Assembly: GCA_003818495.1 (NCBI GenBank)
Contig: RPRK01000036.1
Span: 1 to 32,088, forward strand
DNA: 32,088 bases
Source of the DNA: Burkholderiales bacterium
Lineage (GTDB): Bacteria; Pseudomonadota; Gammaproteobacteria; Burkholderiales; Burkholderiaceae_E
Direction: 5' to 3'
Shown here piece by piece: positions 9,923 to 18,371 of the stretch. The notes under the pieces are model-generated. The model had not been told where the DNA came from. It saw nothing but the letters and a program-made list of their open reading frames with translations, and ran no database searches. The stretch's first letter is position 1. Each line of letters begins with the position of its first letter. The position numbers were made by a program, and so were the translations under genes.

Positions 9923-10168
9923 TTGAAACGCATCCTGCTGATGACCGCGCTGATGGCCTTCACCGCCGCCGCCCACGCCGAGGGCGCCACCTGCACCGCG
10001 ACGGCCGGCGACAAGAAGCTCGCGGGCGCCGCCAAGAACAGCTTCATGAAGAAGTGCGAGACCGACGCGAAGACCACCTGCGACACTCAGGCCGCGGAGA
10101 AGAAGCTCGCGGGTGCCGCGAAGAACAGCTTCGTGAAGAAGTGCGTGACGGACGCGGTCGGGAAGTGA
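9923..10168 (+). CDS. PsiF-family secreted small protein with two repeats
   Basis: An 81-residue exported protein of the PsiF family, named for a phosphate-starvation gene of E. coli; its molecular function is unknown. A signal peptide (KRILLMTALMAFTAAAHA) is followed by two copies of the PsiF repeat, each with KKLAGAAKNSF and a following KKC, so the mature protein has evenly spaced Cys and Lys residues. The likely start is TTG at 9923, because it supplies the basic residues of the signal peptide and has GGAG eight bases upstream; the first ATG (9941) would lose them. It is followed by two strong hairpins and so is probably a single-gene unit. Confidence 0.85.
   Translation: MKRILLMTALMAFTAAAHAEGATCTATAGDKKLAGAAKNSFMKKCETDAKTTCDTQAAEKKLAGAAKNSFVKKCVTDAVGK
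10013..10144 (+). repeat. DNA-level tandem duplication inside the psiF-like gene
   Basis: The 45-bp segment 10013-10057 recurs at 10100-10144 with only three differences, two of them silent. The period is 87 bp (29 codons). The near identity at DNA level points to a recent duplication or ongoing conversion between units. Confidence 0.8.
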
Positions 10169-11920: not shown

Positions 11921-13198
11921 CTAGCGGCGCGCCGTGGCGGGGTCGTCCTCGGCCAGCGCCCAGTGCTGGAGCGGCACGAACCGATGGCTCTCGCCGCGCT
12001 CCAGCGTCCTGATCCTCGACCGTCCGACCGACGCCTCGCGAGCCGCCGGCGCCGCCGCGGGCGCACGGTCGGCCTCGCCCCGGAAGTCCCCGAGCCGAAG
12101 CGCGATCGCGGTGCGGGGGGCCAGTCGCTCGATCGCCCTGAGGCTCGAGGGCGCATCCATCGAACCGCCGACACCGAGGACGGTGGTGCCGCCGACGTGC
12201 AGCAGCGCCAGGTCGAGGTCGACGAGCCTGGGCGCGAGCGCGCCCAGCAGCGTGTCGTCGATGCCGGTGTCGCCGCTGATCCAGAGCCGGTAGGCCGCGG
12301 GCGCGTCGGCGCGGCCGAACGCCATCAGCGTGCCCATGGACGCGGGCAGCATCGCGGCGATCCCGCGCGGGCCGGTGCGTGTCGGCGTGGCGGTCAGCTG
12401 CAGCCAGGCGTCGCCGCGATCGATGCGCAGTTCGCCCCACTCGGGCAGCGCGTGCACCGCCGCGAATCCCATCGACACCAGCTCGGCGCGGGCGGCGGCC
12501 GGCGCGACGATCGGCACGTCCCTGGGCAGCAGGCGTCGTGCCAGTCGGTCGAAGTGGTCCTCGCGGAGCCGGGACAGCACGACGAGATCGATCGGCGGCA
12601 GTTCGTCGAAGTCCAGGGCGGGATCGGCGCGTCGCAGGTCCGGCAGGCCCGGGAGGATGTGGGCGGGCTCGCCGCGCCGAAGGAAGTTCGGATCGGTGAG
12701 CACCGTCATCCCATGGCTGCGGATGAGCACGGTCGCCTCGCCGATCCAGGTGACGCTGCCTTCGGTCGGTACGCCGGCGCCGACGAACCGGTCGTGGATC
12801 GGCAGTCGGAGCTGGCGACGGGTGGGCGGCGCCTCGGGCGCGCCACGGTTGGCGCCGGCAGGTCGCCTCGCTTCGAGCGCAGCCTCCGCACCGGCATGAC
12901 CCGCCTGCAGCGTCTGCGCGAACTGGACGCGCATGCCGTGCAGACCGGCTTCGGCCGCGCGGGTGACCGCCGGATCCCACGTATCGTCTGGCGCGTCGGC
13001 CGTGGCCTGTCGGTGAGGGGCCGGGACGAGCCCGGACGGTGACGTCGGCGCCTGCGCCAGCATCCGCGAGGCGTACGGGGACACGCCCGCCGCGAGCGCC
13101 AGCATCAGCAGCACGGTGAGGATCGCGATGGAGGCCCCCCCACCGTGACGCTCCGGCCGAGATCGCCTGCCTGCCCGGCGCATCCGTACGCATCCCAT
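11921..13198 (-). CDS. MBL-fold protein with substituted metal ligands (probable pseudoenzyme), membrane-anchored or exported
   Basis: About 425 residues with the layout of UlaG/NAPE-PLD-like metallo-beta-lactamase hydrolases: a WIGEATVLI strand, TDPNFLRR, DLVVLS, SGDTGID and HVGGTTVLG. The expected HxHxDH reads R210-L-R-E-D-H (12554-12574), and the later IPIH-type ligand reads IALRLGDF (about 12083-12103). A PGRHGP-type histidine also appears replaced by Thr (TRTGPRG, about 12370). Three of the usual metal sites are thus lost while the fold motifs persist. A hydrophobic N-terminal helix (IAILTVLLMLALAAG) suggests a signal anchor. The start is uncertain: ATG 13198 has GGGA upstream, ATG 13183 is similar. 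It lies 94 bp downstream of spoVR on the same strand and could be cotranscribed. Confidence 0.8.
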   Translation of the reverse strand: MGCVRMRRAGRRSRPERHGGGASIAILTVLLMLALAAGVSPYASRMLAQAPTSPSGLVPAPHRQATADAPDDTWDPAVTRAAEAGLHGMRVQFAQTLQAGHAGAEAALEARRPAGANRGAPEAPPTRRQLRLPIHDRFVGAGVPTEGSVTWIGEATVLIRSHGMTVLTDPNFLRRGEPAHILPGLPDLRRADPALDFDELPPIDLVVLSRLREDHFDRLARRLLPRDVPIVAPAAARAELVSMGFAAVHALPEWGELRIDRGDAWLQLTATPTRTGPRGIAAMLPASMGTLMAFGRADAPAAYRLWISGDTGIDDTLLGALAPRLVDLDLALLHVGGTTVLGVGGSMDAPSSLRAIERLAPRTAIALRLGDFRGEADRAPAAAPAAREASVGRSRIRTLERGESHRFVPLQHWALAEDDPATARR

Positions 13199-13292: not shown

Positions 13293-14969
13293 TCAGCGCC
13301 CGACGCCGCGCAGCGCGCTGGTCGCGGCCGAGCCGGCGACGCGGCGCTGGCGCGCCTCCATCCGGCATTCGTGCACCGGGATGATCCGGCCATCCTCGGC
13401 CTGGGTCTCGAGCTTCACGGTGAAGCCCCAGAGCTGGGCCATGTGGCGCACCACCGGTTCGCACTCGGGCGCGAGCGCGCGCCGGTCGCGCCGGAAGTGG
13501 CGCAGCGTGAGCGAGCGGTCGCCCTCGAGGTCGACCGAGACGACCTGGATGTCGGGCTCGCGCTCCCCGAGCGAATACTGCTTCGACAGCGATTCGCGGA
13601 CCAGCCTGTAGCCGGAGTCGTCGTGGATCGCGCCGATGCGGCGGGTCGGTTCGGAATCGTCGTCGACGAGGCAGAACAGCCTGAAGTCGCGGATCACCTT
13701 GGGCGAGAGGAACTGCGCGATGAAGCTCTCGTCCTTGAAGTTGCGCATCGCCCAGTCGAGCGTCGTGTGCCAGTCGCTGCCGGCGATGTCGGGGAACCAG
13801 CGCCGGTCCTCGTCGGTCGGCGCCTCGCAGATGCGGCGGATGTCGCGGAACATCGCGAACCCGAGCGCGTACGGATTGATCCCGCCATAGCGCTGGCTGT
13901 CGAAGCCCGGCTGGGTGAGCACGTTGGTGTGCGAGGTCAGCACCTCCAGCATGAACGCGTCCGAGACCAGGCCCTCGTCGTACATGGTCTGCAGGATCGT
14001 GTAGTGCCAGAACGTGGCCCAGCCCTCGTTCATCACCTGGGTCTGGCGCTGCGGATAGAAGTACTGCGAGATCTTGCGGACGATCCGCGCGAGCTCGCGC
14101 TGCCACGGTTCGAGGAGCGGCGCGTGCTTCTCGACGAAATACAGCAGGTTCTCCTGCGGCTCGGCGGGGAAGCTGCGGTGCCGCGCCTCGGCGGCGTCGT
14201 CGTTCGGCCGGCTCGGCAGCGTGCGCCACAGGTCGTTGACCTGCTGCTGCATGTGCAGCTCGCGCTCCTTGAGCCGTTCCTGCTCCTGCGCGAGCGAGCG
14301 CTTGTTCGGCCGCTTGTAGCGGTCGACGCCGTGGTTGGCGAGCGCATGGCACGCGTCGAGCACCCGCTCGACCTCGAGCTCACCGTGACGCTGCTCGCAT
14401 TCGGCGACGAAGCGCTTGGCGAACACCAGGTAGTCGATGATCGAGTCCGCGTGGGTCCAGGTGCGGAACAGGTAGTTGCCCTTGAAGAAGGAGTTGTGGC
14501 CGTAGCAGGCGTGCGCGATGACCAGCGCCTGCATCGGCATCGTGTTCTCCTCCATCAGGTAGGCGATGCACGGGTCCGAGTTGATGACGATCTCGTAGGC
14601 CAGTCCCATGTGGCCGCGGCGGTAGGTCTGCTCGGTCGACAGGTAGTGCTTGCCGTACGACCAGTGGGTGTAGCCCACCGGCATGCCGTGCGACGCGTAC
14701 GCGTCCATCATCTGCTCGGCGGTGATGACCTCGATCTGGTTCGGGTAGGTATCGAGGCCGTAGCCGCGGGCGATCCGTGCGATCTCGCGGTCGTAGCGCT
14801 CGATCAGCTCGAAGGTCCATTCGGAGCCGCCCGGCAGCGCGCGGTCCGCACGGGTCGCGACCGGCTCGGGGCGAGGCAGTGCCGCGGTGTGCGGGGGCGT
14901 CGCGTCGACGTCCGGGACCGCGCCGGGCAGCGGTTCGGTCGCGGGCGTCGGGGAAGCGGGATCGGTCAT
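13293..14969 (-). CDS. spoVR: SpoVR family protein (YcgB-like)
   Basis: A 558-residue SpoVR-family protein. In Bacillus SpoVR is needed for spore cortex; in Gram-negatives the family is part of a stress or stationary-phase module of unknown mechanism. Family blocks are clear: YPNQIEVITAEQMMDAY, GMPVGYTHWSYGK, the HACYGHNSFFKGNYLF block, QVMNEGWATFWHY and the NPYALGFAMFRDI block. The first 45 or so residues are a Pro/Ala/Thr-rich tail not needed for the fold. The ATG at 14969 has AAGGA upstream. It is the last gene of a tight leftward operon with prkA and the DUF444 gene, 23 bp after the latter's stop. Confidence 0.95.
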   Translation of the reverse strand: MTDPASPTPATEPLPGAVPDVDATPPHTAALPRPEPVATRADRALPGGSEWTFELIERYDREIARIARGYGLDTYPNQIEVITAEQMMDAYASHGMPVGYTHWSYGKHYLSTEQTYRRGHMGLAYEIVINSDPCIAYLMEENTMPMQALVIAHACYGHNSFFKGNYLFRTWTHADSIIDYLVFAKRFVAECEQRHGELEVERVLDACHALANHGVDRYKRPNKRSLAQEQERLKERELHMQQQVNDLWRTLPSRPNDDAAEARHRSFPAEPQENLLYFVEKHAPLLEPWQRELARIVRKISQYFYPQRQTQVMNEGWATFWHYTILQTMYDEGLVSDAFMLEVLTSHTNVLTQPGFDSQRYGGINPYALGFAMFRDIRRICEAPTDEDRRWFPDIAGSDWHTTLDWAMRNFKDESFIAQFLSPKVIRDFRLFCLVDDDSEPTRRIGAIHDDSGYRLVRESLSKQYSLGEREPDIQVVSVDLEGDRSLTLRHFRRDRRALAPECEPVVRHMAQLWGFTVKLETQAEDGRIIPVHECRMEARQRRVAGSAATSALRGVGR

Positions 14970-14992: not shown

Positions 14993-16318
14993 TCAGGCGG
15001 CCATCTTCTGCTTGCGGGCGAACAGCTCGCGCAGCACCGGATAGACGTCGGCCCGGGTCATGATCCGGCCCATCGCCAGGTTGCGCGCGCCGGAACGGGC
15101 CAGTTCGAACTGCTCCCAGAGCGATTGCGGCTGGGCCGCGTCGATCTCGATGTAGCAGTAGTACTGCACGCGGGGGAGCAGCTCGTTGACGAGCAGCTCG
15201 TGGCACTTCGGACAGTCGCTCTCCCAGTTGTCGCCGTCGGACGCCTGGGCGACGTAGACGTTCCACTGGTCGAGGGGAAAGCGCTCCTTGATGGTCTCGA
15301 CGGCCAGCTCGAGCGCGCTCGAGACCAGCGTGCCGCCCGATTCGCGCGAATGGAAGAAGCCGTCCTCGTCGACCACCGCCGCCGTCGTGTGGTGGCGGAT
15401 GAAGACGATCTCGATGCGCTCGTAGTGCCGGGTGAGGAAGAGGTGGAGCAGGATGAAGAAGCGCTTGGCCAGGTCCTTGCGGTTCTCGTCCATCGAGCCC
15501 GAGACGTCCATCACGCACAGCATCACCGCCTGCGACACCGGCTTGGGCTGCTGCACGCGGTTGTTGAAGCGCAGGTCGAACTCGTCGATGAACGGCACGC
15601 GGGCGATGCGGCCGAGCAGCCGGTCGCGCTCGGCGAGGAGCGCCTGCAGCGCGGCGTCCTCCGGCTCGGTGGCGGCCGCGTCGTCCTGCACGGGTGGCGC
15701 GACGGGCGTGGTCGCCGCGAGCCGGCGCCGCTCGACCGCGATCCGCTCGTAGACCTCGCGCAGCTGGGCCCGGTACGGCGCGGCGAGGGCGATGCGACGC
15801 GCCAGCGACTCGCGCATCGTCCGCATGATCGACAGGTTCGAGGGCGTGCCGTCGCTGCGGAAGCCGCCGCGGCGCAGCTTGGTCTGCGGGATCTGGGCGA
15901 GCTGGGTCTTGACCAGGTCGGGGAGCGCCATGTCCTCGAAGAAGAACTCGAGGAACTCCTCGCGGGTCAGCGCGAAGGTGAACGCATCCTCGCTCTCGCC
16001 GGAGTCGCCGGCCTTGCCCGAGCCGCCGCCGCCGCCACCGCCCTGCGGCCGGGGGATCTTGTCGCCGGTGGTGAACTCCTTGTTGCCCGGCAGCACGCGC
16101 TCGCGCCGGCCGCCCGGCCCGAGCGAGAAGTTCGGCTCGGTGAGGTCGCGCGCCGGGATGGTGACGTTGCCCCCCTTGTCGGTGTCGGCGATCTTGCGCT
16201 GCGCCACCGCCCGGGCGACGGCCTCGCGCACCTGCGCCTTGTAGCGCTTGAGGAAGCGCTGCTGGTTGCCGGCGCTCTTGCGCCGGCCGTTCGCGCGTCG
16301 ATCGATGATCTCGGACAT
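14993..16318 (-). CDS. yeaH: YeaH/YhbH family DUF444 protein, VWA-like
   Basis: A 441-residue DUF444 protein, the regular partner of PrkA kinase. The N-terminus begins IIDRRANGRRKSAGNQQRF, typical of the family. A glycine-rich linker lies at about 93-99. The C-terminal half is a von Willebrand A-like domain with the metal site motif DVSGSM (about 271-276) and a GGTLVSSALEL block. GGAGGAG stands about eight bases before the ATG at 16318, a strong ribosome site. It starts 31 bp after prkA and ends 23 bp before spoVR. In E. coli the equivalent gene pair responds to nitrogen and stationary-phase signals; regulation here is not visible. Confidence 0.95.
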   Translation of the reverse strand: MSEIIDRRANGRRKSAGNQQRFLKRYKAQVREAVARAVAQRKIADTDKGGNVTIPARDLTEPNFSLGPGGRRERVLPGNKEFTTGDKIPRPQGGGGGGGSGKAGDSGESEDAFTFALTREEFLEFFFEDMALPDLVKTQLAQIPQTKLRRGGFRSDGTPSNLSIMRTMRESLARRIALAAPYRAQLREVYERIAVERRRLAATTPVAPPVQDDAAATEPEDAALQALLAERDRLLGRIARVPFIDEFDLRFNNRVQQPKPVSQAVMLCVMDVSGSMDENRKDLAKRFFILLHLFLTRHYERIEIVFIRHHTTAAVVDEDGFFHSRESGGTLVSSALELAVETIKERFPLDQWNVYVAQASDGDNWESDCPKCHELLVNELLPRVQYYCYIEIDAAQPQSLWEQFELARSGARNLAMGRIMTRADVYPVLRELFARKQKMAA

Positions 16319-16349: not shown

Positions 16350-18371
16350 TCAGGACGACTTGCGCACGCGCAGGTACCACTCCACCAGCAGGCGGACCTG
16401 CTTGGGCGTGTAGCCCTTCTCGACCATGCGGTCGACGAAGTTCTGGTGCTTGTGCTGTTCGTCGGCCGATGCCTTGGCGTTGAACGAGATCACCGGCAGC
16501 AGGTCCTCGGTGGTCGAGAACATCTTCTTCTCGATCACGCCGCGCAGCTTCTCGTAGCTCGTCCACGGCGGGTTCTTGCCGCCCGCGTTGGCGCGCGCGC
16601 GCAGCACGAAGTTGACGATCTCGTGCCGGAAGTCCTTCGGGTTGGCGATGCCGGCGGGCTTCTCGATCTTCTCGAGCTCGTCGTTGAGCTGGTTGCGGTC
16701 GAGCATCTCGCCGGTGTTCGGGTCGCGGAACTCCTGGTCCTGGATCCAGAAGTCCGCGAACGTGACGTACCGGTCGAAGACGTTCTGGCCGTACTCGGAG
16801 TACGACTCGAGGTAGGCCGTCTGGATCTCCTTGCCGATGAACTCGGCATAGGGATGCGACAGGTGCTCCTTGATGAAGGCGAGATACTTCTTCTCGACCT
16901 CGGGCGAGAACTGCTCGCGCTCGATCTGCTGCTCGAGGACGTAGAGCAGGTGCACCGGGTTGGCGGCGACCTCGCCGTGGTCGAAGTTGAAGACCTTCGA
17001 CAGCACCTTGTAGGCGAAGCGCGTCGACAGCCCGCTCATGCCTTCGTCGACACCGGCGAAGTCGCGGTACTCCTGCAGCGACTTGGCCTTCGGGTCGACG
17101 TCCTTGAGGTTCTCGCCGTCGTAGATGCGCATCTTCGAGAACAGGCTGGAGTTCTCGGGCTCCTTGAGCCGGGTGAGGATCGCGAACTGCGCCATCATCT
17201 TCAGCGTGCCGGGGGCGCACGGCGACTGCGACAGCGAACTCGATTCGAGCAGCTTGTCGTAGATGCGCACCTCCTCGGTCACGCGAAGGCAGTACGGCAC
17301 CTTGACGATGTAGATCCGGTCGAGGAAGGCCTCGTTGTTCTTGTTGTTGCGGAAGGCCTGCCACTCGCTCTCGTTCGAGTGGGCGAGGATCACGCCGTCG
17401 AACGGAATGGCGCCGAATCCTTCGGTGCCCTTGTAGTTGCCTTCCTGCGTCGCGGTGAGCAGCGGATGCAGCACCTTGATCGGGGCCTTGAACATCTCGA
17501 CGAACTCGAGCAGACCCTGATTCGCCAGGCACAGCCCTCCGGAGTAGCTGTAGGCGTCCGGGTCGTCCTGCGAGAACCGCTCGAGCTGTCGGATGTCGAG
17601 CTTGCCGACCAGCGAGGAGATGTCCTGGTTGTTCTCGTCGCCCGGCTCCGTCTTGGCGACGGCGATCTGCTGGAGGATCGAGGGCCGGAGCTTGACGACG
17701 CGAAAGCGCGTGATGTCGCCGTTGTACTCCATGAGCCGCTTGACGGCCCAGGGCGACATGATGGGATTGAGGTAGCGGCGCGGGATGCCGTACTCGGCCT
17801 CGATCGACGGTCCGTCCTCGATCGCCGAGAACAGGCCCAGCGGAGACTCGTTCACCGGCGAGCCCTTGAGCGCGTAGAAGGGCATCGCCTCCATCAGCGA
17901 CTTCAGCTTCTCGGCGAGCGACGACTTGCCGCCCCCCGGCGGACCGAGCAGGTAGAGGATCTGCTTGCGTTCCTCGAGCGCCTGGGCCGAGTGCTTGAAG
18001 AAGGACACCATCTGCTCGATGGTCTCCTCCATGCCGTAGAACTCGCGGAACGCGGGATACACCCGCATCACCTTGTTCGAGAAGATCCGGGACAGCCTCG
18101 GATCGGACCGCGTGTCGAGCAGCTCGGGCTCGCCGATCGCCATCAGCATCCGCTCGGACGCGGTGGCGTAGGCGCTGCGGTCTCGCTTGCAGAGCTCGAG
18201 GTACTCCTGCAGCGAGTACTCCTCCTCGAGTCGGGCTTCGTAGCGGGCCTTGTAGCGGCCGAGGATGCCCGGTCCGCCGGGTGCCTGGGGTGGGTGCGCG
18301 ACGCTGCGAGCAGCCAGTCGTGCGGTGCCTTCGTCGAAGGCGGAGAGGACCTGCTTGAGACCGGCTTCCAT
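16350..18371 (-). CDS. prkA: PrkA/YeaG serine protein kinase (AAA-type)
   Basis: A 673-residue PrkA-family protein: an AAA-type ATPase core with Walker A GPPGGGKSS (residues 143-151) and a C-terminal kinase-like domain. It is known as a stress and sporulation kinase in Bacillus and as YeaG in E. coli. Conserved blocks include RLSRIFSNKV, YPAFREFYGMEETIEQ and ILAHSNESEW. The first 33 or so residues precede the point where E. coli YeaG begins and form an extra N-terminal segment; the ATG at 18371 has GGAGG six bases upstream, so this extension is probably translated. It leads the operon prkA-yeaH-spoVR. Confidence 0.96.
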   Translation of the reverse strand: MEAGLKQVLSAFDEGTARLAARSVAHPPQAPGGPGILGRYKARYEARLEEEYSLQEYLELCKRDRSAYATASERMLMAIGEPELLDTRSDPRLSRIFSNKVMRVYPAFREFYGMEETIEQMVSFFKHSAQALEERKQILYLLGPPGGGKSSLAEKLKSLMEAMPFYALKGSPVNESPLGLFSAIEDGPSIEAEYGIPRRYLNPIMSPWAVKRLMEYNGDITRFRVVKLRPSILQQIAVAKTEPGDENNQDISSLVGKLDIRQLERFSQDDPDAYSYSGGLCLANQGLLEFVEMFKAPIKVLHPLLTATQEGNYKGTEGFGAIPFDGVILAHSNESEWQAFRNNKNNEAFLDRIYIVKVPYCLRVTEEVRIYDKLLESSSLSQSPCAPGTLKMMAQFAILTRLKEPENSSLFSKMRIYDGENLKDVDPKAKSLQEYRDFAGVDEGMSGLSTRFAYKVLSKVFNFDHGEVAANPVHLLYVLEQQIEREQFSPEVEKKYLAFIKEHLSHPYAEFIGKEIQTAYLESYSEYGQNVFDRYVTFADFWIQDQEFRDPNTGEMLDRNQLNDELEKIEKPAGIANPKDFRHEIVNFVLRARANAGGKNPPWTSYEKLRGVIEKKMFSTTEDLLPVISFNAKASADEQHKHQNFVDRMVEKGYTPKQVRLLVEWYLRVRKSS

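Follow-up and report, generated by a model that had tools for sequence, protein, structure and literature searches.

In a Burkholderiales draft genome, the gene that follows prkA, yeaH and spoVR encodes a protein of the MBL fold in which metal-binding histidines appear to have been exchanged, raising the question of whether it is still a metallo-hydrolase, a protein kept for another task, or a gene on its way to being lost. The first-pass annotation of the window (the whole stretch of DNA analysed, 32,088 nucleotides) had located it downstream of a prkA-yeaH-spoVR stress operon, and this position is confirmed, on the same strand. The gene, the main parts of its product and the operon genes are:

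11921..13198, minus strand: gene of the MBL-fold protein, a probable pseudoenzyme (425 amino acids plus stop; ATG at 13198 inferred from comparison with the ortholog)
13082..13135, minus strand: hydrophobic N-terminal segment, residues 22-39, putative signal peptide or membrane anchor (by eye)
12089..12757, minus strand: MBL-fold domain, residues ~148-370 (Pfam and alignments)
13293..14969, minus strand: spoVR (PF04293), directly upstream, 94-nt gap
14993..16318, minus strand: yeaH (DUF444, PF04285)
16350..18371, minus strand: prkA (PF08298 and PF06798)

The longest listed open frame of the gene extends from 13393 to 11921 on the minus strand, and the ATG at 13198 was taken as the start because the first ATG of the ortholog sits at the matching place. 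The predicted protein begins with a basic stretch, followed by the hydrophobic segment (the ortholog is hydrophobic there as well, by eye), a linker, and the MBL domain from about residue 148. In a Pfam search, the domain scored over the cut-offs of both PF12706 (Lactamase_B_2; E 4e-9, 36.7 bits, cut-off 27) and PF13483 (Lactamase_B_3; E 1e-7, 32.6 bits, cut-off 24), while its match to NCBIfam PRK00685 (E 0.0013, 18 bits) was far under the cut-off of 144 bits, and a PADLOC search gave zero matches at E <= 1e-3. The solved structure closest by sequence is NAPE-PLD (4qn9; E 4.5e-8 from the single sequence and 1.4e-19 from a family profile), which, like NAPE-PLD-like bacterial proteins, belongs to the same superfamily and has ligand columns that map directly onto the window protein. 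The UPF0173 protein TM_1162 (3x2z) is also related by profile (E 1.5e-15), but has the usual His in the alignment, which the window protein does not. The alpha-beta-beta-alpha fold is assigned from sequence homology; AlphaFold2 models from two and three sequences (pLDDT 36.5 and 40.7) were too poor for analysis of fold or pocket. Two badly aligned proteins (L080 and L084) were omitted from the alignment for the second model, and scans of viral contigs for alignment depth yielded 6, 0, 0 and 1 loci.

The best-matching family consists of MBL proteins from the Burkholderiales genus g69 (L036-L038 and L088-L115) and plasmid-borne MBL-fold metallo-hydrolases from Natrinema, Haladaptatus, Streptomyces, Rhodococcus, Nonomuraea and Gloeothece, which are 32-44% identical to the window protein over most of the domain and have the same order of motifs. 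Three of the g69 proteins (L036-L038) likewise begin with export-like segments (by eye), while a C-terminal YxVFxSPLxDF segment present in the family is missing from the window protein. Canonical members of the family occur on haloarchaeal plasmids (L042, L047, L048 and L049), the L049 copy being apparently truncated. The NAPE-PLD-like bacterial relatives are more distant (~23-35% identical) and keep their ligands, which appear normal by eye in 32/32 of them, with the third His gap-shifted in the printed alignment.

In the numbering of human MBL-fold proteins, metal site 1 is formed by H116, H118 and H196, and site 2 by D120, H121 and H263, with D221 bridging the two. PMC4819959 gives this numbering (H116, H118, D120, H121, H196, D221, H263) and describes a di-zinc site in NAPE-PLD. 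The ligand columns of NAPE-PLD were taken from the profile alignment to 4qn9, with whose motifs those of the window protein coincide, and the corresponding residues, numbered in the 425-amino acid protein starting at 13198, are:

12554..12571, minus strand: RLREDH replacing HxHxDH (R210 and R212 for His; D214 and H215 kept)
12569-12571, minus strand: H210 replaced by Arg (ligand column alignment)
12563-12565, minus strand: H212 replaced by Arg (ligand column alignment)
12557-12559, minus strand: D214, kept (ligand column alignment)
12554-12556, minus strand: H215, kept (ligand column alignment)
12374-12376, minus strand: H275, the RHG-type ligand His, replaced by Thr (alignment; Ser in the ortholog)
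12269..12271, minus strand: D310, the Asp of SGDT, kept (ligand column alignment)
12095-12097, minus strand: H368, the IPIH-type ligand His, replaced by Arg (ligand column alignment)

Four of the seven di-metal ligand residues are therefore replaced, spread over three motif positions and equivalent to H116, H118, H196 and H263 in the human numbering. The first-pass annotation, whose span (12083-12574) runs from the HxHxDH motif through the last ligand, had proposed these changes (HxHxDH to RLREDH, the PGRHGP-type His to Thr and the IPIH-type His to Arg) together with retention of SGDT, and alignment to canonical members bears out each of them. All seven ligands are present in the 43/43 other aligned proteins, comprising 13 from L036-L048 and 30 from L088-L117 (the incomplete L049 was dropped; the set includes two NAPE-PLD-like proteins, L040 and L041, and the distant, long-branched L117). 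These relatives all keep the H-x-H-x-D-H motif, the His of RH, the last His and the Asp of GDT, a motif that reads ADT in L039; the seven columns read R, R, D, H, T/S, D, R in the window protein and its ortholog, in contrast to the g69 and plasmid relatives, which retain the full set. Judged from these alignments, the window protein lacks the residues needed for a normal di-metal site, and it probably no longer works as a zinc-dependent hydrolase.

A scan of genome contigs recovered a sole relative, in a Burkholderiales MAG labelled LacPavin (L029; 74% identical over the queried domain), the sequence of which is that of genome G007 (3939 bases, 100%), placed in the same genus as the window's own genome. 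Its motifs are SRLREDHFD, TPTRSGP, ISGDTGID and PLRL, such that EDHFD and SGDT are intact in both orthologs, the Arg replacements at 210, 212 and 368 are common to both species, and the Thr at 275 is a Ser. The loss is therefore not a defect of a single strain. Both species also have the same order of genes (prkA, yeaH, spoVR, the 94-nt gap, the MBL-fold gene, a convergent thioesterase gene and a cyclase-family gene), an arrangement consistent with co-transcription of the MBL-fold gene with the operon. A scan for promoters and terminators found 0 of each, with shuffled sequences giving 0.0 and 0.1, and so has little power here.

Comparison of the two orthologs, using our own approximate Nei-Gojobori count, gave a dN/dS of 0.28 (bootstrap 0.18-0.43) in the domain and 0.37 over the entire gene. 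Being averages across the full divergence, these values would hide a recent end of selection. The two genes are 73% identical in nucleotides, with open frames of 425 and 431 codons, and all indels between them (6/6) are multiples of three. Of 57 family-invariant columns, 91% are kept between the orthologs, compared to 69% of the 39 most variable. The stop-free frame alone is weak proof, because 25% of 2000 runs of a neutral simulation without indels were also free of stops. The five neighbours tested are each under stronger constraint, with dN/dS of 0.04 for PrkA, 0.09 for YeaH, 0.09 for SpoVR, 0.17 for the thioesterase and 0.16 for the cyclase. Purifying selection on the MBL-fold gene is real but moderate.

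The erosion of conserved positions extends beyond the metal site. Nine canonical members of the family (from Burkholderiales, haloarchaea, Actinomycetota and one cyanobacterium), used as references, share 63 invariant columns, of which 40 are kept in both orthologs, with changes in 4/7 ligand columns and 19/56 other invariant columns (Fisher p = 0.21); the proposition that metal ligands alone were lost was not supported. One of the changed non-ligand columns holds a His that is invariant in the nine references and present in 40/43 relatives:

12677..12679, minus strand: R174, replacing the family His of FLH, non-ligand (alignments)

Invariant His columns were changed more often than the others (5/6 versus 18/57, p = 0.02, in a comparison chosen post hoc), and four of the five changed His columns became Arg. 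CGN codons lie one or two steps from CAY, and because the gene is 75% GC (88% at third positions), design has a fair competitor in the drift of unneeded His to Arg. A tree built from the 43-relative alignment without L040 and L041 joins the two orthologs to the rest through a long stem branch, at 2.25 changes per column; the program flags the position of this branch as unsure.

The degenerate form is narrowly distributed. Among 74 family genomes it is found in the window's own genome (G000) and G007 alone, with the next best match at E 3e-22, and no further degenerate copy was seen in samples of 399, 398 and 369 genomes from the order, phylum and class, respectively (overlapping and partial samples, in which the best candidates per genome were scored). 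By comparison, 47/62 genomes of genus g69 contain a match at E <= 1e-30, and the ligands are kept in 31/31 of these matching genomes examined (30 loci plus L038). SpoVR is found in 36/74 family genomes, and inspection of 30 spoVR loci, with ~1.0-1.5 kb downstream covered per locus (1 base only in L079), revealed a full MBL-fold gene in two (the window included), a remnant in one and no match in 27. Across these loci the gene is not a constant companion of spoVR, as a regular member of the operon would be.

Two further species are informative in this respect. In G011, where SpoVR shares 94% identity with that of the window, spoVR is directly followed by the convergent thioesterase gene, and a search of the rest of the genome found no close copy of the MBL-fold gene (best E 5.5e-14). 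In G005 a remnant is left:

L053, ~2421-2775: remnant of the MBL-fold gene in G005, with hydrophobic segment and C-terminal tail, MBL core gone

This remnant comprises the pre-start region, which is 77-79% identical in nucleotides, together with the C-terminal tail and a hydrophobic segment that matches weakly; the ~0.85 kb core is missing, and the remaining pieces are in different frames. The SpoVR nucleotide tree has the topology (G005,(G011,(window,G007))), with supports of 0.835, 0.997 and 0.816 from the outside in, suggesting, most simply, that the ancestor of this four-species clade already had the gene and that two lines later lost it or had it broken. The ligand loss, again most simply, predates the split of the two species that still carry the gene.

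We favour, with a probability of about 0.6, the reading that the gene encodes a lineage-restricted MBL-fold pseudoenzyme that is probably exported or anchored in the membrane and is retained for some task other than hydrolysis. It is related to an exported-looking branch of UlaG/NAPE-PLD-like metallohydrolases. Its first metal site (H210, H212 and H275) is wholly lost, and the second lacks a single ligand (H368); its expression is presumably linked to that of the stress operon. The surface of the domain or the old active-site pocket, which would now contain arginines, might bind an anionic ligand or a protein partner, although this is a guess. On this most economical reading, moderate selection keeps the protein in two species while their relatives can dispense with it, and it is possibly on its way out. 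The first-pass annotation had suggested selection for a non-catalytic role, and one part of this stands, since a protein without the normal metal site seems to be kept, as indicated by the shared loss, the in-frame indels and the domain dN/dS. The other part is not supported in the form proposed, with losses reaching beyond the ligands, constraint below that of the neighbours, and the gene gone or reduced to a remnant in two of the four clade species; that selection acted for one particular non-catalytic role would be plausible at most.

Such a protein is best read as comparable in kind to CPSF100 and INTS9, MBL-fold proteins in which HxHxDH is likewise destroyed and which, according to PMC4819959 and PMC7980224, have lost metal binding and act as parts of complexes. 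As described there, bound metal was not seen in yeast CPSF100, and INTS9 has NYHC where HxHxDH is expected. Unlike the window protein, in which the Pfam search detected no beta-CASP domain, each carries this domain and has an active relative as its partner (CPSF73 and INTS11, respectively). A corresponding heterodimer with an active close paralog was considered and set aside, since the window's own draft genome contains no other match to the protein at E <= 1e-3; the same genome has 14 other PF12706 places, eight of them over the cut-off.

Several observations count against the pseudoenzyme reading, including the existence of two orthologs only, the weak constraint, the absence of the gene in G011 and its fragmentation in G005, the lack of a pairing match in the own genome, the arginines that could reflect GC-biased drift, and two His residues outside the motifs. 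Some of these would suit a decaying relic, in which an enzyme that had lost its use was worn away at its metal site and at further conserved positions, and two intact copies happen not to have been lost yet. The disappearance and frame disruption within the same four-species clade, the altered non-ligand columns, the long stem branch of unsure placing and the constraint weaker than in five neighbours are all in keeping with decay; frames that stay open at this divergence, indels exclusively in multiples of three, an upper bootstrap of 0.43 for the domain dN/dS and substitutions that avoid family-conserved columns are less so, and we regard the relic as somewhat unlikely.

An enzyme working with one metal at the second site (D214, H215 and D310) and using Arg side chains to assist in the binding of a charged substrate would account for the retention of exactly these three residues in both species and for the intact EDHFD and SGDT motifs. 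It is quite improbable given that H368 of the same site is Arg and all three site-1 His are gone, and the orthologs are too similar for three kept residues to mean much. Similarly doubtful is a bolder version of the favoured reading, in which an MBL-fold protein of the periplasm, coupled to PrkA-YeaH-SpoVR, would serve as a binding or sensor protein, with Arg replacing the metals in place and charge so that the pocket accepts an anionic signal. An artefact, with the real ligands elsewhere, the alignment wrong or the sequence faulty, could be suspected from the fragmented draft genome (572 contigs, 5.74% contamination) and from H162 and H249, which by eye are common to both orthologs, unusual in the family and outside the ligand motifs. 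The same residues in another species' genome refute a sequence fault, and the motifs align clearly to 43 relatives, leaving this explanation highly improbable.

The MBL-fold pseudoenzymes met in the literature, as far as its accessible parts extend, are eukaryotic RNA-processing factors, while the case described here is bacterial, probably exported, and belongs to the UlaG/NAPE-PLD-like branch; none of the titles listed in literature searches, with subscription literature mostly outside their reach, concerns this protein. A gene that is intact, broken or gone across related species would offer a compact case of a metalloenzyme turning into a binding protein or disappearing, and cautions that such a gene should not be annotated as encoding an active metallo-hydrolase.

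The surroundings of the locus show some further features. The neighbourhood of the ortholog continues (L029, 9758-12906) with proteins resembling subunits F and C of alkyl hydroperoxide reductase (by eye). The window contains a gene for a small PsiF-repeat protein (PF07769) with paired KLAGAAKNSF motifs at 9923-10165, and small proteins resembling it are encoded downstream of spoVR in two other loci (L058 and L059; by eye).
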